Below, piece by piece: positions 53,706-62,597 of a DNA stretch of 64,000 nt; position 1 is the first letter of the stretch, and each line of letters opens with the position of its first letter. Made by a program: the position numbers and the translations under genes. The notes beneath the pieces are model-generated. The model saw only the letters and a list, made by a program, of their open reading frames with translations. It had not been told where the DNA came from and did no database searches. Source of the stretch: Bryobacteraceae bacterium (GTDB taxonomy: Bacteria > Acidobacteriota > Terriglobia > Bryobacterales > Bryobacteraceae). The stretch is from NCBI GenBank assembly GCA_025928545.1, contig JAICJH010000021.1, forward strand, positions 1 to 64,000, read 5' to 3'.

Positions 53706-54200
53706 ATGTCATCAATCCTCGAACTTTGTCACTGGCTCCAGCACACTGCGTTCTCGCAGTCGGTTCTGCAATCCGCGCTCGTTTTTCCCCTGATAGAGGG
53801 AACCCACATACTCGCGCTCTCGATCTCGGTTGGCCTCGTCATGGTGCTCGACCTTCGCCTTCTCGGCCTGGCTTTCCGCGGAGAACGGGTGGCGGTCATC
53901 ATGAAACAGAGCGCCGGCATCTCCTTGGTGGGCTTCGCAATTATGTTCGCGACTGGCCTCATACTCTTCATCACCCAGGCCGAGAAAGCCTACACGAATC
54001 GCTTCTTCCTGATCAAAATGGTTTTGCTGGTTCTGGCGGGAATTAACGCCGGCTGGTATCAGTACAAGTACTACCCGAATATGGAGGAGTGGGATGCGGC
54101 GCCCGTGACTCCGTTGGGCCCAAGAGTTTGTGCGGTGGTCTCCCTGATCTGCTGGCTGACGGTGATCTTCTGCGGCCGGACGATGGCGTACGAGTTTTAA
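53706..54200 (+). CDS. DUF6644-like four-helix membrane protein (paralog 1)
   Basis: GTHILALSISVGLVMVLDLRLLGLAFRG ... GLILFITQAEKAYTNRFFLIKM; four hydrophobic segments. Confidence 0.75.
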   Translation: MSSILELCHWLQHTAFSQSVLQSALVFPLIEGTHILALSISVGLVMVLDLRLLGLAFRGERVAVIMKQSAGISLVGFAIMFATGLILFITQAEKAYTNRFFLIKMVLLVLAGINAGWYQYKYYPNMEEWDAAPVTPLGPRVCAVVSLICWLTVIFCGRTMAYEF

Positions 54201-54213
54201 AAGGAGGTCGCCT

Positions 54214-54723
54214 ATGCTCCATGAAATCTTAGCGTTTATACAACACCTCCTTCACGAATTCGACGTCTGGATCTACAATTCGCCGACGCCGGGCATTATC
54301 AGGGACTCCAAATACGCGATTCCGATCATCCAGACCTTCCACCTCGCCGGCATAACGACGATACTCGGAACCACGGTAGTGACGAACCTTCGCCTGCTCA
54401 ATCTCGGGTATCGGGAGATCCCGCTGGAGGTGATCGTCTCGCAGTTGCGCCGCTGGTTTAAGATCGGTCTGATCACGACGATGTCGTCTGGTTTTATCGT
54501 TTTCGTGGTAGACCCGGTCCGCTATGTCCAGAACACTTCCTTCATCGTGAAGATGTGCCTGCTGCTGCTCGCAATCATCTATCAGTTCACAATCTTCCGG
54601 AAGATTTTGCGGGCCAATCCCGCACCCGCTTTATCCATGGGCAACCTGGTTCCATCGGCGATATCGCTGGTACTCTGGTTCGGAGTGGGCTGGGCCGGAC
54701 GCGCAATAGCCTTTTTCGGATAA
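54214..54723 (+). CDS. DUF6644-like four-helix membrane protein (paralog 2)
   Basis: TFHLAGITTILGTTVVTNLRLLNLGYRE ... GFIVFVVDPVRYVQNTSFIVKM; preceded by AAAAGGAGG. Confidence 0.75.
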   Translation: MLHEILAFIQHLLHEFDVWIYNSPTPGIIRDSKYAIPIIQTFHLAGITTILGTTVVTNLRLLNLGYREIPLEVIVSQLRRWFKIGLITTMSSGFIVFVVDPVRYVQNTSFIVKMCLLLLAIIYQFTIFRKILRANPAPALSMGNLVPSAISLVLWFGVGWAGRAIAFFG

Positions 54724-54758: not shown

Positions 54759-55163
54759 ATGCGAAATGATACTCCTGGTGGTGGGGACCCGTTGCTGAAA
54801 GCACTCCGCGCAGTCTGCGCAGTACACATCCTTGCCGTTTTTTCTCAAGCGGTATCTGCGGGGCAGTTTCTGTCGGGCGACCCAACTCCCGTTCGCTTTC
54901 ACGAAGTCGGAGCCTGGGTCATCCTGACCGTTGCCGCTGCACAGCTCATCCTCGTGATTATCCGCGGACGATTCTTTACCGGGATGCTGCCGTTGACGCT
55001 TTCGAGCGTCGCAATTCTGCTTTGTGAAGGACTTCAGACGGGAACCGGTTACGGCCGTTTTCCCCAAGTCCATATTCCGCTTGCTGTGCTGATTTTCGGA
55101 GGGCTGGTCTGGCAGGGATATCAATTGTTCCGGTCACCGAATCCCGGTAGACAACCGATATGA
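54759..55163 (+). CDS. Small His-containing four-helix membrane protein
   Basis: AVHILAVFSQAVSAGQFL, RFHEVGAWVILTVAAAQLILV, GYGRFPQVHIPLAVLIFGGLVWQGYQLF; ATGA overlap with the next gene. Confidence 0.7.
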   Translation: MRNDTPGGGDPLLKALRAVCAVHILAVFSQAVSAGQFLSGDPTPVRFHEVGAWVILTVAAAQLILVIIRGRFFTGMLPLTLSSVAILLCEGLQTGTGYGRFPQVHIPLAVLIFGGLVWQGYQLFRSPNPGRQPI

Positions 55164-56692
55164 AGATCAGCCGCCGGGAAGCGATGCGAATAGCCACGCT
55201 GAGCATGGCGACTGGCGCTGTGATCCCAGATCTGGCGTGCACGCAGGCCCGGCCTGAACCAAGGCTGCTGACAAGCCAAGCCAAGCTTCCCCCGCGATTC
55301 TCTGTTCCGCTTCCGGTACCGACGGTGCTGAAGCCCGTCAACGCCAGTGCCGATACCGATCATTACGAAATGAGCGTGCGCCCCGCGAGCCTCAGAATTC
55401 TTCCGGGGCTGGAAACGGAAATCTGGGGATACGAAGGTCAGTTTCCCGGCCCTACGATCGAGGGGCGCACAGGACGGCGGGTCTCACTCCGGCTTCGCAA
55501 TCAGTTGCCTGTACCCCTCGTTCATCATCTCCACGGCGGCCACACCCCGCCGGAGAGCGACGGATATCCAACAGACCTTCTTACACCCGCGGCCGGTTTT
55601 ACGAATTCGCACATGCACGATCCCCGGGCCAATACTGCGGCAATGGAGCGCGAATACGTGTATCCAAACCTGCAGCGCCCTGCAACACTTTGGTATCACG
55701 ATCACCGCATGGACTTTACCGGGGCGCAGGTTTGGCGCGGAATGGTTGGGCTTTACATCCTGCGCGACGATCGTGAGGATCGTCTGCCGCTGCCGCGCGA
55801 CGGCAGGGAAATCCCTTTAGTGATCTGCGACCGGTCCTTTGCATCCGACGGATCATTCCTTTATCCGTCTCTGGACAAAAGTCTGCGCAGCCCCGGAATC
55901 GAGAGTTCCTACATGGGAGGCGTGCTGGGCGATGCAATTATGGTCAACGGCGCGCCCTGGCCAAAACTGGAAGTTTCCAATACGTGCTATCGTTTTCGCA
56001 TTCTGAACGCGTCAAACGCGCGACGCTATGAACTTGCTCTTGAACCTGCCGCGGGCTCTGGTCACGCGTTCATTCAGATCGGCAGCGACGGCGGACTGCT
56101 GGAAGCGCCACAAAACCGGCGTACGATACGAATTGCGCCGGCGGAAAGGGTCGATCTGATTGTGGATTTTTCCCGATACGCGGTGGGTTCAACCGTAATC
56201 CTCACGAATCGCGAAGGTTCCGGTTCGGCCGCCAGTGTCATGCAGTTTCAAGTCACGCGCAGTGAGAAGGACCCATGCACTGTGCCGGCTAAACTTTCCG
56301 AACCGCCGCTTTTGGATGTCCGTGCCGCCACGGTCACGCGGGATTTCGATTTCCGCTATCAACGCAGTTCGCGTGTCTGGACGATTAACGGCAGAGAATT
56401 CGACCCGGCGCGGATCGACGCCTACCCGAAGCTCGGGTCCACGGAGATCTGGCGATTACGCTCGGACTTCAATCATCCGGTGCATCTGCACCTCGTGCAG
56501 TTCCGGGTCCTTTCTCACGGCGGACCGCCGGAGGCTTCCGATGCAGGCTGGAAGGATACCCTCGATCTGGAACCTGGAGTGGCGGCCGAGATTCTGGTGC
56601 GCTTTACCGACTACAGGGGACGCTACGTGTTCCATTGCCATAACCTGGAACATGAGGACATGATGATGATGGGAAATTTTGAGGTGGTTTGA
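55160..56692 (+). CDS. Multicopper oxidase, CotA/bilirubin-oxidase-like, with Tat-type lipoprotein-like signal
   Basis: SRREAMRIATLSMATGAVIPDLAC; copper motifs HHLHGGH, WYHDHRM, HPVHLHLVQF, YVFHCHNLEHEDMMMMG. Confidence 0.93.
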   Translation: MKISRREAMRIATLSMATGAVIPDLACTQARPEPRLLTSQAKLPPRFSVPLPVPTVLKPVNASADTDHYEMSVRPASLRILPGLETEIWGYEGQFPGPTIEGRTGRRVSLRLRNQLPVPLVHHLHGGHTPPESDGYPTDLLTPAAGFTNSHMHDPRANTAAMEREYVYPNLQRPATLWYHDHRMDFTGAQVWRGMVGLYILRDDREDRLPLPRDGREIPLVICDRSFASDGSFLYPSLDKSLRSPGIESSYMGGVLGDAIMVNGAPWPKLEVSNTCYRFRILNASNARRYELALEPAAGSGHAFIQIGSDGGLLEAPQNRRTIRIAPAERVDLIVDFSRYAVGSTVILTNREGSGSAASVMQFQVTRSEKDPCTVPAKLSEPPLLDVRAATVTRDFDFRYQRSSRVWTINGREFDPARIDAYPKLGSTEIWRLRSDFNHPVHLHLVQFRVLSHGGPPEASDAGWKDTLDLEPGVAAEILVRFTDYRGRYVFHCHNLEHEDMMMMGNFEVV

Positions 56693-56695
56693 GCG

Positions 56696-57550
56696 ATGAC
56701 CCTGCATCGATATGCTGTGATTGTTTCCATCGTGCTGGTCGTGGTGATTGGGATCGGCGGGAGCGTAACCACGCTTGCCGAATTCGCCGCCACAGCCCCC
56801 GCGCAGACCGCATCTATCCAGTCGATTCCAACGGCAGCAGTTCATGCAGCGGGTGGAGTCCTCGCCACGTTGCTCGTTCTGATTGCAGCTCTATGGGTCG
56901 CGTTCTCCAGACAGCGAAGAGCTGTCCAGATCACGGCGTGGGCGGGCGCTGCGCTGGCCGCGATCAGTAGCGCCCTCGGTATGTCGGACCAGGCATCGGC
57001 CTCGGTCACAGTCGCGATCGTCCATGCCTGCCTTGCGCCTGTGATTCTGTCGCTGATGGTGTCACTGGTGGTTCTTACCGCACCCGCCGATTCTTCATCG
57101 GAAGAGCCACTGCTGTTGCCAGGCGGCGGGAAGCTCAGGATAGCTGCCCTTGCCGGTCCACCACTCGCACTGATCCAGATCATTTTCGGCGCGCTTTATC
57201 GCCATAAAGCCATCGGCGTATTGCTCCACATGGGCGGAGCCCTGGTGGTGTCGTTGCTGACATTGATCGTCTGTGTCGCGATCATGCAACAAATCACGCA
57301 CAGCATACCTCTCAGGAATGCCGCCGTGGTCGCGATGATCGTGGTTCTGACTCAGCTTTCGCTGGGAATCGCGGCCTTTGTGATGAGGCTGCTCGATGCC
57401 GATACAGGCACGCTCTTCCTCGCCGCCACCGTGTTGCACGTGACTGTCGGTTCAATGACACTCGCATCAACCGCGCTGTTGGCGATATACGCCCGGGGCA
57501 TTCGTCCCGCAAAAGACGATCAGAAGATCGCTTTTGGCGAATCCCAATAA
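56696..57550 (+). CDS. COX15/CtaA-like (heme A synthase-like) membrane protein
   Basis: Eight hydrophobic helices; RYAVIVSIVLVVVIGIGGSVTT; VHAAGGVLATLLVLI, VAIVHACLAPVIL, GALYRHKAIGVLLHMGGALVV, TVLHVTVGSMTLA. Confidence 0.7.
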   Translation: MTLHRYAVIVSIVLVVVIGIGGSVTTLAEFAATAPAQTASIQSIPTAAVHAAGGVLATLLVLIAALWVAFSRQRRAVQITAWAGAALAAISSALGMSDQASASVTVAIVHACLAPVILSLMVSLVVLTAPADSSSEEPLLLPGGGKLRIAALAGPPLALIQIIFGALYRHKAIGVLLHMGGALVVSLLTLIVCVAIMQQITHSIPLRNAAVVAMIVVLTQLSLGIAAFVMRLLDADTGTLFLAATVLHVTVGSMTLASTALLAIYARGIRPAKDDQKIAFGESQ

Positions 57551-58026
57551 GCAATCCATCGCCCTGCGCAAATTACGGCCAGCCACAGCAACAGCGAGAG
57601 AGCAGCGGCAAGTCGCGCTTTGGATGGAATCTCTTTGGCCGCGTCGAGCGCCGCTGTGTTGCGGTAGACGGATCGAAAATACACGGAGTGTGCGATCAGC
57701 AGACAAAGCAGAAACATCTTCAGCCGGAAGAAGGTATTGGGATAGTATGCATCGGCTTTCGCTCCTGCAAGCAGAATGCCGCAGGTGACCATCAGTGTGA
57801 GTCCCGCGTGCTTCCACGGACGGAGGGTCCTGATGAGTTCGCCGGCCGGCGCGGTCGGGAAGGCCCACCCCAGCAGACGGAGATTCGTGGCAAGAATCAT
57901 GCCGCCGAATATCGCGATGCAAGTGAGATGAGTTGACAATACGATCGGGTAGAAATACTGAGACTGCCTGACGGCCGTGAACAGCCCCGTATTCCGAATT
58001 GTTTCAGCGAATTCCGCTAGCATCAT
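57520..58026 (-). CDS. DUF6644-like four-helix membrane protein (paralog 3)
   Basis: STHLTCIAIFGGMILATNLRLLGWAFPT ... GILLAGAKADAYYPNTFFRLKM; 31-bp convergent overlap with the CtaA-like gene. Confidence 0.75.
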   Translation of the reverse strand: MMLAEFAETIRNTGLFTAVRQSQYFYPIVLSTHLTCIAIFGGMILATNLRLLGWAFPTAPAGELIRTLRPWKHAGLTLMVTCGILLAGAKADAYYPNTFFRLKMFLLCLLIAHSVYFRSVYRNTAALDAAKEIPSKARLAAALSLLLWLAVICAGRWIAYWDSPKAIF

Positions 58027-58044: not shown

Positions 58045-58485
58045 CTACGTGAAAGCGTAAAACAGCCCGCCAAAAATAACGGGCACCCACAGAAGTAATG
58101 ACATCGCCCCCGCAATTACACCGGCTCCCGCGGACCCGCGTCGCGCCACCATGCGGTGCACGGTGTAGTTGTAAATAATGGCGATCACAAGGCAAATCAA
58201 CTTCAGCCGGAACACCTCATTGCGCGAATAGCGCTCGGGATCGGTTGAGAAAAGCAGCAGACCGGATGTAATTGCCGTCGTCAATCCGCCAAGTGTCCAG
58301 AACGTAGTTGTCCTCAGCAAATCCGATGACCTCAGGTTTTTCAAACCAAGCCCCATCAGGCGGAAGTCAACCATCGCAATGGACCCGATCGCAACCGCAA
58401 ACGACGCGATGTGAATACATTCGAGCGCGCCAAAAGCCCACTCGATCTGGTTCAGCGGATTAGTCAGTGGATCGTAAACCAGCAA
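58045..58485 (-). CDS. DUF6644-like four-helix membrane protein (paralog 4)
   Basis: CIHIASFAVAIGSIAMVDFRLMGLGLKN ... GLLLFSTDPERYSRNEVFRLKL. Confidence 0.75.
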   Translation of the reverse strand: MLVYDPLTNPLNQIEWAFGALECIHIASFAVAIGSIAMVDFRLMGLGLKNLRSSDLLRTTTFWTLGGLTTAITSGLLLFSTDPERYSRNEVFRLKLICLVIAIIYNYTVHRMVARRGSAGAGVIAGAMSLLLWVPVIFGGLFYAFT

Positions 58486-58494
58486 AGTATTCTC

Positions 58495-61400
58495 CTAGAA
58501 AATGAATTTCACTGCAACCTGCACCAGCCGGGGCGCGCCCGCTTTAACGATTTGTCCGAACAGCGCCGTGTCTATGTTCCCATTGACCGCCGAGGGCCCA
58601 AAAAACTGGGCGTGATTGAACGTGTTGAATGTTTCGAAGCGAAACTGCAGCGCTTGCGATTCGGACATATTAAAAGTCCGCAGCAAAGCCAGATCGAAGT
58701 TCAGCGCACCCGGCCCATGGAATGAACGCCGGGACGCGTTGCCCGCAGTACCCAGCGCATTTTCGCTGAAGGCCCCCGTGTTGAAGTATTTGAGACCATT
58801 TCGCGGGTTGTGGTTTAGCGCGAGTGCCGCGCCATTGTAGTCCGGCAGGTCGAGACTATAGTTGTTGACGCCGTTCGGAATACTGCCCATCAGCGAATTG
58901 TCACCGGTGCTGCGCAGCGTCACCGGGAAGCCGGAACTGGCCCGCGCGATTCCCGAAACTCCCCAACCACCCAATAACGTTCTTGCAAACTTGGTTTTCC
59001 CCGTCGGGAGGAAACGAAACTCGAAGGTCGTCACCAGATCATGCTTGAGATCGAAAGAAGACAACGAGCGCGTGGCCCGAAAGTTGAACGGATTAATGGG
59101 ATCGGACAGACTCGATGCCTGATCGATGGATTTACTGAACGTATAACTGGCCGCAACGTCCAGACGTTTGCTGGAGTGCTTAATATTCGCCTGAAGAGAA
59201 TTATAGTTCGAGTTACCGATGCTCGCGTTGTAGTCGTCGTTGCTGAAGGCGTCGCCAAGGCCGCTCCGGGTCCCGTTGATGGTCTTGCCCGCGGGAGTTA
59301 GGTAAGTCTGATCCTCAGCGAACGGTCCGCAAGTGGCAGTACCGGGTGAAACCGCGGACTCGCGACTCAGTGACAGGCAAAGCCCCGGATTACCCGGATT
59401 GGCGGAATAAACGACCAGAAGGTGATGAGCCTGTGAGCCGGCATAGCCAACGCTCGCCAACAGATTTGTTCCGAACTGACGCTCAACAGAGAGAAAATAG
59501 CTCTCATTGTAGGGGTAGGTGTTGGTAGGCGGCGGCGCCGTCATTCCCGCGATCGGTTCAAATGCCGGGAAGTCAATACCCCCGACAGGCTTCGCCGGTG
59601 AGACACCGAAAGGTGGAAAAACCAGAGGGAAAGGGTTGCCTGAGAATGCGCCGTCAGCAGCAGATCGGAACGGCTGATCGAAAAGAGGAGGACCAGGGCT
59701 CGTATAGCTCAACCCGTATGGTGGTTGAGGCTCATCGAATGCAAGGGTGTTGCCCTGGATGACCGAATAGAACATTCCATAACCCGCGCGAACGCTCATT
59801 TTACCCGGGCCACCAGTAATTCTGCCAATCAGTCCATCAGACGCGTCGGGTGACCACGCCATACCCAGTCTGGGAGCAAACCGATTCCGAGTGGGAACTA
59901 AGGTATCGGGAACTCCGGCATCGCCGGCATAGACAAGCCCTGCTGGTGCGTCGGTGAATACTTTCGATTGCTCGCCCGGAATAAAGGTAGGAACCTGGTT
60001 GTACTTCTCTGACCAATACTCCATCAAATCCCAGCGCAAGCCATAGTTCAGGACCAGGTTGGATTTCACCCTCCAGCTGTCCTGCGCGAAGCCCCCCACG
60101 TAGCGGTGGCGGGGATAATACGACTGCGAATCAGCCTGGTTGTAGTTGCTTGCCACACCGATCAAGAAGTCCGCAAAATCCGAACCGGTTTCGGAACCGG
60201 AAAACAGAAACGAGCCGTTAAAAGTCGGGTTTGGATTTACGTTGACCTTTTCGATACTTGCCTGAATTCCTCCCTTGAACGTGTGCCGTCCAAACGCGCG
60301 CGAAATATTCTCACTCGCCGAGTATGTATTGTTGGCCTGCTTCAGATTCGTGATAGGGGTGCCCATTACGAAGGAATTGAAGACGACGTTCTCGATGCCT
60401 TCAATGGACGGCGCCAGAGGAACGATGCCGGCCGTTCCCACCCCGGTCAGAAATCCCTGAGACGCAAGGCTGGTACCTACGCCTCCCGATGGCTCCCCGA
60501 CATCGTTCGATGAACGCATGAAACTCAGCCGCAGCTCATTAACGAAGTTGGCGCCGAACTGCCTTGTGGCGCCCAGATTCACCAGTTGTGCCCGTCCGAT
60601 GTTGAGGCCGTTAAACCCTGGAACTGAAGCGCCTCCCTGCCCGGTCGGATAAGGGTTATCAACGTAATAGTCATCGAAAAAGTAGTAGGCGGAGAGTGCG
60701 CCCCATAGGCTGCTGTTGCCATCCAGGCGAAAGCTCGCTTTATCGTCGCGCAGCTTCTGTCCATGCTCACCACTGGAGAAAGTTGTGGCGCCGGCGTTGG
60801 GCGCGGGTATGTATGGCAGCAGATACCGCGAGGGCGCGGACCAGGCCCGCAGCGGGATTATTCCGCCAGGAAAAACACATTGCGAGCTTGCGACGCAACT
60901 GCCCGAATAGTAAGGCTCGCCCGAAGTGACCTTGTAGCCCAGTCTTTGAGAAAGCAAGTCCGCGAGATATGGGCCCGCCACTGAGCCCGTCAATGAATCC
61001 GCTACGTCGGCGAGATTACCCGTCCGGTCCGTAGCTGACGGCACGGAAATCAGCCCCGTGTCGATTCCCTGGTTTGTCCTTGTCCCCTGATAATCCGCAA
61101 AGAAAAACGTCTTGTTCCTGCGGATGGCCCCGCCCGCGGTACCGCCAAATTGATTCTGCCGGTAAAAGCTCCGCTCGGGTGAAAAAAAGTTGCGTGCGTC
61201 CAGGTCGGTGTTGCGCAGGAACTCGAAGCCTGATCCATGCATCTGGTTGCTCCCGGACTTGGTGATAACATTCACCACGCCACCGCTCGAGTTCCCGTAT
61301 TCGGCGTCAAAGTTATTCGTGAGGACACGGAATTCGGCAATCGAATCGAGATTCGGAACGATTGCGGTGCCGCCGTTCATCAATTCCTTGACGTCGCCGC

Positions 61401-62040
61401 CATTGACAACGAAGCCATTGGCATCCTCACGCTGACCGTTAATGGATTGATTGCCGGGATTCAAACCACCGGAAGGTGCGATCGCAACTGTCGCGCCCGC
61501 CATCACAATGGAATCCGCCGTTTGAGTGGATGTTGGAATAATTCCCGCCTGCAACGCAAGCAGATCCGTAAAGCTTCGCCCGTTCAACGCCACAGCCGTC
61601 ATCGCGTGAGACGTCACGATCTCACCGGTCTGCGTGGTGGAGGTATCCACCTGAAGCGGGTTCTCGACAACGGTGATCGTGTCCATCTTTTCGCTCATCT
61701 GCAGCGTGATATCGAGCCTGACCACACCGTCGGCATCCACAACAATTCCGGATCGTTTTTGCAGGCTGAAACCAGCGGCTTCCACCTGTACCGTATAGCT
61801 CCCGACCGACAGGCCGGAGAATGTATAGTTCCCGCTGCTGTCGGATTCGGTGGCCGACGAGACTCCCTGGGCCGGTATCGAGGCGATAACGCGCGCGTGG
61901 GGCAGCACTGCGCCGCTGGGATCCTTTACCACTCCGGATATACTCCCGGTGACGGCGGCGGGACTTGCCGTACACAAACAAAAAAAGAGGAGTATGGGCG
62001 CAAGTCTCCTCAGGAGCCGCAATGCGGCTGAAATTTTCAT
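58495..62040 (-). CDS. Oar-like TonB-dependent receptor with carboxypeptidase-regulatory-like domain
   Basis: GSISGVVKDPSGAVLPHARVIAS...GNYTFSGLSVGSYTVQVEAAGF; plug ...INGQREDANGFVVNGGDVKE; YGNSSGGVVNVITKSGSNQMHGS. Confidence 0.92.
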   Translation of the reverse strand: MKISAALRLLRRLAPILLFFCLCTASPAAVTGSISGVVKDPSGAVLPHARVIASIPAQGVSSATESDSSGNYTFSGLSVGSYTVQVEAAGFSLQKRSGIVVDADGVVRLDITLQMSEKMDTITVVENPLQVDTSTTQTGEIVTSHAMTAVALNGRSFTDLLALQAGIIPTSTQTADSIVMAGATVAIAPSGGLNPGNQSINGQREDANGFVVNGGDVKELMNGGTAIVPNLDSIAEFRVLTNNFDAEYGNSSGGVVNVITKSGSNQMHGSGFEFLRNTDLDARNFFSPERSFYRQNQFGGTAGGAIRRNKTFFFADYQGTRTNQGIDTGLISVPSATDRTGNLADVADSLTGSVAGPYLADLLSQRLGYKVTSGEPYYSGSCVASSQCVFPGGIIPLRAWSAPSRYLLPYIPAPNAGATTFSSGEHGQKLRDDKASFRLDGNSSLWGALSAYYFFDDYYVDNPYPTGQGGASVPGFNGLNIGRAQLVNLGATRQFGANFVNELRLSFMRSSNDVGEPSGGVGTSLASQGFLTGVGTAGIVPLAPSIEGIENVVFNSFVMGTPITNLKQANNTYSASENISRAFGRHTFKGGIQASIEKVNVNPNPTFNGSFLFSGSETGSDFADFLIGVASNYNQADSQSYYPRHRYVGGFAQDSWRVKSNLVLNYGLRWDLMEYWSEKYNQVPTFIPGEQSKVFTDAPAGLVYAGDAGVPDTLVPTRNRFAPRLGMAWSPDASDGLIGRITGGPGKMSVRAGYGMFYSVIQGNTLAFDEPQPPYGLSYTSPGPPLFDQPFRSAADGAFSGNPFPLVFPPFGVSPAKPVGGIDFPAFEPIAGMTAPPPTNTYPYNESYFLSVERQFGTNLLASVGYAGSQAHHLLVVYSANPGNPGLCLSLSRESAVSPGTATCGPFAEDQTYLTPAGKTINGTRSGLGDAFSNDDYNASIGNSNYNSLQANIKHSSKRLDVAASYTFSKSIDQASSLSDPINPFNFRATRSLSSFDLKHDLVTTFEFRFLPTGKTKFARTLLGGWGVSGIARASSGFPVTLRSTGDNSLMGSIPNGVNNYSLDLPDYNGAALALNHNPRNGLKYFNTGAFSENALGTAGNASRRSFHGPGALNFDLALLRTFNMSESQALQFRFETFNTFNHAQFFGPSAVNGNIDTALFGQIVKAGAPRLVQVAVKFIF

Positions 62041-62102: not shown

Positions 62103-62132
62103 CTCCGATGCCCTCACGAGAGAGCATCGGAG
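62103..62132. repeat. Stem-loop between receptor and DUF6152-like gene
   Basis: CTCCGATGC ... GCATCGGAG perfect 9-bp inverted repeat; no strong T-run. Confidence 0.55.
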
Positions 62133-62156: not shown

Positions 62157-62597
62157 TTAGTTGCTGCCCGTCTGGTGGCCGGGGTCCTTGCCATCCGCAG
62201 CGGGCCGGGCGATGTCGTGATACATGCGGGTGCCGTCGGGTTTAGTCACGTAGAAAAGCGAAATTCCCTTGGAGCCATCTCGCATCGGGTGACCTGTCAC
62301 GCTGATCGAGTCACCGGGTTTGTAGGACGCCCGATTCCAGCCCTGACGTGCCATGATGTTCACGGCGCCGCCCTCCACATCCCAGACGCCAACGGTGGAG
62401 GGATCGACCCCAGCCTTGTCGGCAACCTTAATGATGATGTGGGTGTGTGGATTTTCCCAATTGTATTCCTGAACCGTACCGACGTATGTCACGTTTTTGG
62501 ACATTTCGAACATCGCGAAGGAGTGATGGGCAAATGCCGGGACGCCAAGAGCTAACGCCCCCATAACGGCGACCATGGCAATCGTCTTTGCTTTCAT
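62157..62597 (-). CDS. DUF6152-like secreted protein
   Basis: MKAKTIAMVAVMGALALGVPAFA|HHSFAMFEMSKNVTYVGTVQEYNWENPHTHIIIKVADK; AxA-type cleavage leaves HHSF. Confidence 0.85.
   Translation of the reverse strand: MKAKTIAMVAVMGALALGVPAFAHHSFAMFEMSKNVTYVGTVQEYNWENPHTHIIIKVADKAGVDPSTVGVWDVEGGAVNIMARQGWNRASYKPGDSISVTGHPMRDGSKGISLFYVTKPDGTRMYHDIARPAADGKDPGHQTGSN

Follow-up and report, generated by a model that had tools for sequence, protein, structure and literature searches.

The DUF6152 gene and its surroundings

The window, the whole stretch of 64,000 nucleotides analysed here, contains near its end a gene on the minus strand (62157..62597) that encodes a precursor of 146 amino acids. Read directly from the sequence, the open reading frame extends from an ATG at 62597 to a stop at 62157, with an AGAGG stretch directly 5' of the start. 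The product matches the Pfam family DUF6152 (PF19649) with 104.9 bits against a gathering cut-off of 27 (E=2.4e-30), which bears out the DUF6152-like call of the initial annotation; its coordinates and strand are also right. Besides this match, Pfam returned only a sub-threshold hit to DUF4131 for the protein, and neither CopC (PF04234) nor CusF. DUF6152 is a Pfam entry without assigned function or solved structure. No related solved structure was found, a match to Tako8 having no passing stretch, and a literature search found no paper naming DUF6152 or DUF6644, the family of membrane proteins encoded nearby.

The precursor starts with MKAKTIAMVAVMGALALGVPAFA and continues HHSFAMFE, and the stretch WENPHTH is located farther along the chain. 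The predicted signal peptide (62529..62597, minus strand) has 23 residues and ends in PAFA, with A-F-A at positions −3 to −1, giving a mature chain of 123 amino acids. On the same strand, the codons CAT CAC at 62523..62528 specify the predicted mature His1 and His2, and those at 62445..62453 specify Asn26, Pro27 and His28 (the NPH motif). A second DUF6152 member in the same genome reads AVAHHGSNV...INPHPQ.

On the minus strand of the window DUF6152 is followed by a gene for a TonB-type outer-membrane protein and then by two DUF6644 genes. The TonB-type protein, the next gene 3' of DUF6152 (58495..62040, minus strand), has CarboxypepD_reg and OMP_b-brl_4 domains (PF25183, E=3e-175). The co-directional DUF6644 genes are at 58045..58485 (Pfam E=8.6e-8) and 57520..58026 (E=4.4e-14), both also on the minus strand, and a second tandem DUF6644 pair is found on the plus strand at 53706..54200 (E=1.2e-10) and 54214..54723 (E=7e-18). 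At the loci of the closest relatives (L032, L033, L034 and L035) the DUF6644 pair comes directly after DUF6152, without the intervening TonB-type gene. A perfect 13-bp hairpin (62103..62132, minus strand; z = -4.9) begins 24 nt 3' of the DUF6152 stop; it is without a clean T run and would be a partial terminator or an intercistronic hairpin. It may set the ratio of expression between DUF6152 and the outer-membrane protein.

The only copper-specific neighbour of DUF6152 in the window is a multicopper oxidase on the plus strand (55160..56692; assigned by Pfam, with a CueO-like NCBIfam match below cut-off). The initial annotation had taken this gene as support for copper binding. It is, however, encoded 5.5 kb away on the opposite strand, and no equivalent was found at the other DUF6152 loci except for a weak match at L042, so that we rejected it as a functional partner.

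Three histidines are invariant in the family

To place the protein in its family, relatives were collected from 199 Acidobacteriota genomes, of which 23 were positive, and from 299 Pseudomonadota genomes (31 positive), sampled as the phylum of a Caulobacterales relative, together with a direct scan. Removal of sequences more than 70% identical left 142 non-redundant members from the two phyla with a median pairwise identity of 31%. His1, His2 and His28 are each present in 142/142 of these and no other residue is invariant; the triad is also complete in all 205 members of a larger set. Pro27 (141/142), Asn26 (134/142) and some glycine residues come close. The initial annotation had proposed testing the first histidine and an NPHxH motif in a family alignment: the first histidine and that of NPH are fully conserved, but the second histidine of the motif is not. 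This residue, His30 of NPHTH, is found in just 12/142 members, mostly of the window's own subfamily, and was rejected as a family ligand.

The mature start at HHSFAMFE after PAFA, as given in the initial annotation, proved very probable. Residue −1 is Ala, Gly, Ser or Thr in 142/142 of the non-redundant homologues, and the predicted site rests on this conservation, on the A-F-A context of the −3,−1 rule and on the coevolution of residues 4–8 with the folded domain. The mature chain thus very probably starts His-His. As a control, 569 signal-peptide-like N-termini of other open reading frames from the same loci were selected with a crude regular-expression predictor rather than SignalP; His was at +1 in 11 of them and His-His in none. 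With the pair in 0/569 control N-termini and in 142/142 and 205/205 family members, the pattern is far beyond chance.

The pair could in principle have been imposed by the profile itself. A profile built from residue 12 onward, that is without residues 1–11, recovered 197 distinct members, and all 197 have His-His at the expected place. The members added by a genome-wide search with a similarly truncated alignment also all have the pair, except for two distant OB-like proteins (E=1e-8 and 1e-5). Both of these lack His-His and also the NPH histidine, so that the two N-terminal histidines and that of the loop are present or absent together. As profiles without the N-terminus find no true member lacking His-His, a profile artefact was rejected.

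Beyond the triad, Met82 is found in 12/35 members that have Met at residue 6 and in 0/170 of the others; it may be an addition that favours Cu(I) in the window's subfamily. Divergent members from Pseudomonadota, an HHGW subgroup (L164, L174, L179 and L183), have twin-arginine-like signal peptides such as MSRRSVLRIAA...ALAHH, and these could mean export after folding.

Predicted fold and position of the N-terminus

The mature chain was modelled with AlphaFold2 using an alignment of nine sequences, the chain and eight relatives. The mean pLDDT was 84; residues 1–10 averaged 80, below the core at over 90. Strands are at residues 13–23, 30–35, 47–52, 74–82 and 88–95, and His28 is on the loop between the first two. 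A Foldseek search of the PDB with the model matched OB domains, namely those of lysyl-tRNA synthetase, RPA and mitochondrial SSB, so by prediction DUF6152 is an OB fold. An Ig-like fold of the LPMO type was not seen, and no LPMO was among the matches in Pfam or in the search for related solved structures.

Mean-field direct-coupling analysis was carried out on 203 sequences (146 effective), a size at which the signal can reflect subfamilies. The strand pairs expected from the AlphaFold2 model recur. Couplings between the N-terminus and the loop rank third (F7–H30), tenth (A5–E25) and seventeenth (E8–N26), and M6–M82 ranks eighth. Direct couplings of His1 or His2 to His28 were set aside, since columns without variation cannot coevolve. 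The couplings agree with an N-terminal segment that folds back beside the His28 loop, which is weaker than a distance.

Genes associated with DUF6152

In DUF6644 one His, one Gly and one Lys are invariant in 78/78 sequences. There is no match to the CopD Pfam family above cut-off, consistent with a distant relation only. When profiles were compared with hhalign, DUF6644 gave 83% (E=1e-5) with CopD, with the invariant His, Gly and Lys aligned, and 42% with HemJ; CopD against HemJ, as a control, gave 91% and unrelated pairs gave 0.1% and 0.4%. DUF6644, which comes in tandem pairs, probably belongs to the CopD/HemJ superfamily as a branch that has so far gone unrecognised. At 18 loci with DUF6644, some of them overlapping, a CxxCH cytochrome c'-like protein is also encoded.

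An unnamed secreted family with the motif GHWEGDTLVVDT...ER..R...L..E.TI.DP....PW is present at 87/108 DUF6152 loci; in 77 cases the gene is co-directional and no more than 400 bp away. It comprises 165 open reading frames in total, with many copies per genome (for example L040:3996-4943 and L066:4245-5090), and neither Pfam nor NCBIfam has a model for it. In Foldseek its AlphaFold2 model (pLDDT 75) is similar to proteins that bind fatty acids or retinol, suggesting a calycin fold. Three copies are found on the window's contig just past the window end (G000:C17:73434-75960; L280:11435-13961). A 680 amino acid open reading frame adjoining the genome's second DUF6152 (L058:6926-8965) has a metallo-beta-lactamase domain and also matches the calycin-like profile.

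DUF6152, DUF6644 and the calycin-like family are found in nearly the same set of about 22 of the 199 Acidobacteriota genomes. Of the 23 with DUF6152, 22 have DUF6644 and 21 the calycin-like family, giving Fisher p values of 6e-26 and 5e-24; with genera as the unit of counting they are 3e-15 and 2e-14. All are inflated by shared ancestry. We found no study of this three-family module. DUF6152 reaches at least 23 copies in Acidobacteriota (the high-copy genomes being G187, G028 and G116) and 28 in one Caulobacterales genome (G200), and the calycin-like family has expanded in parallel. More than 20 copies in some genomes suggests a redox or catabolic module.

Also encoded near DUF6152 loci are TIM-barrel proteins like xylose isomerase, some of which have N-termini of the secretion type (L280:4627-6663, L281:1332-2165 and L035:9404-11430; those of L280 and L281 were assigned by Pfam, those of L035 by eye). 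They hint at sugar or glycoside catabolism.

A putative N-terminal-histidine metal site

Three invariant histidines without any other invariant residue are typical of a metal site. With one of the three being the mature N-terminus, a metal site is the best reading of the DUF6152 pattern, and we consider it quite likely that the exported protein carries a mononuclear site of the N-terminal-His type. Removal of the signal peptide would expose His1-His2 as the N-terminus of an exported OB-fold protein, and the N-terminal segment would pack on the strand 1–2 loop bearing His28. A single ion of a transition metal, with Cu(II)/Cu(I) the likeliest, could then be held by His1 together with the N-terminal amine and by His28, and His2 might be an extra ligand. 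The arrangement would be like a histidine brace, in which the N-terminal amine and the side chain of His1 act with a further His (PMC10952591). Its partners would be the tandem CopD/HemJ-like DUF6644 pair, often the CxxCH cytochrome c'-like protein, and the secreted calycin-like proteins, which may hold a hydrophobic ligand. This explanation as a whole, with an N-terminal-His site on an OB fold in a module with DUF6644, cytochrome and calycin-like partners, seems to us likely.

That the histidines are kept for protein contacts, or as a signal for export or cleavage, with no metal involved, would fit the near-equal conservation of Pro27 and some glycines. It is quite improbable given the metal-site signature of the three histidines, the absence of His-His after the cleavage site from all 569 other secreted-type N-termini of the same loci and the co-conservation of the distant His28 with the pair. 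The identity of the metal is less firm; copper is our best guess and a little more probable than not. The N-terminal-His proteins DUF4198 and DUF6702, however, prefer Ni2+ (PMC12537917). The same residues could bind nickel, zinc or cobalt, or haem, for sensing or sequestration, and the weak likeness of DUF6644 to the haem protein HemJ and the neighbouring CxxCH cytochromes could be read in that way. We regard such a site as unlikely, as Met6 and Met82, which are features of the window's subfamily, would be well suited to Cu(I) and the inspected loci showed no genes for nickel or zinc.

If the metal is copper, DUF6152 might be a CopC-like periplasmic Cu(II) carrier that passes copper to a CopD-like DUF6644. 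The profile relation of DUF6644 to CopD, the DUF6644 tandem adjoining DUF6152 in many genomes and the co-occurrence of the two families speak for such a trafficking pair, as does CopC itself being an N-terminal-His copper protein (PMC10952591). It is nevertheless doubtful: DUF6644 is near DUF6152 at only 26/108 loci, up to 23–28 DUF6152 copies per genome against at most 14 of DUF6644 would be odd for a chaperone, and the predicted OB fold differs from the Ig-like Ang-1, a published N-terminal-His copper carrier (PMC12537917). Tentatively, we prefer a redox or oxidative role in the periplasm to the mere delivery of copper, since more than 20 copies per genome next to varied catabolic genes would fit a redox or catabolic role better than a single chaperone function. 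More speculatively, and rather doubtfully, DUF6152 could represent a hitherto undescribed class of mononuclear copper enzymes or redox proteins, an OB-fold histidine brace with calycin-like secreted proteins presenting hydrophobic substrates and DUF6644 and cytochrome c as electron partners, amplified more than 20-fold in some bacteria to oxidise many compounds.

Comparison with known systems

N-terminal-His metalloproteins include LPMOs, CopC and pMMO. DUF6152 as a Pfam family was known; what is new are the invariant N-terminal His-His and NPH, and the predicted site and its scaffold among such metalloproteins. The OB fold was not previously known to hold a metal with an N-terminal His, and DUF6152 probably does so. 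New scaffolds for a site of this type are rare and useful. DUF6152 bears the signature without exception across an entire uncharacterised family, of which a single genome can hold as many as 28 matches. With the histidine-brace proteins (LPMO, CopC, PmoB, PmoF1 and X325) DUF6152 would share an N-terminal His exposed by cleavage and a distant invariant His. It differs from them in its predicted OB fold in place of an Ig-like scaffold and in having two N-terminal histidines, and no sequence relation to these copper proteins was found.

CusF and SilF, chaperones for Cu(I)/Ag(I), are likewise small periplasmic proteins, with the OB fold predicted for DUF6152 and likely copper ligands. The ligands of CusF are a His, a Met and a Trp in the barrel, not at the N-terminus, and hhalign gave 42% over 26 columns only, so homology is not supported. 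In the CopC-CopD and YcnI-YcnJ uptake pairs a secreted N-terminal-His protein is encoded with a membrane protein of the CopD superfamily, as are DUF6152 and DUF6644, but DUF6644 is a distant relative, occurs in tandem and is lacking from most DUF6152 loci.

The signal-strapping families DUF4198, DUF6702, Ang-1 and Ang-2 are also small, exported and without assigned function, with a conserved mature N-terminal His (PMC12537917). The 2025 paper describes these four families and does not name DUF6152 in its main text. His1 is found in 65–100% of their members, compared with His-His in 100% of DUF6152 together with a third His, and the crystal structure of Ang-1 is Ig-like, in contrast to the OB fold predicted for DUF6152 (PMC12537917). 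Just outside the window, L280:7880-8557 (G000:C17:69879-70556) encodes a further protein whose mature chain is predicted to start with His (PATVA|HRLDECLQATRI). It has a C-terminal transmembrane segment and in Pfam only a sub-threshold EF hand, and recalls the Ang domains seen in HupE/UreJ-2 proteins.
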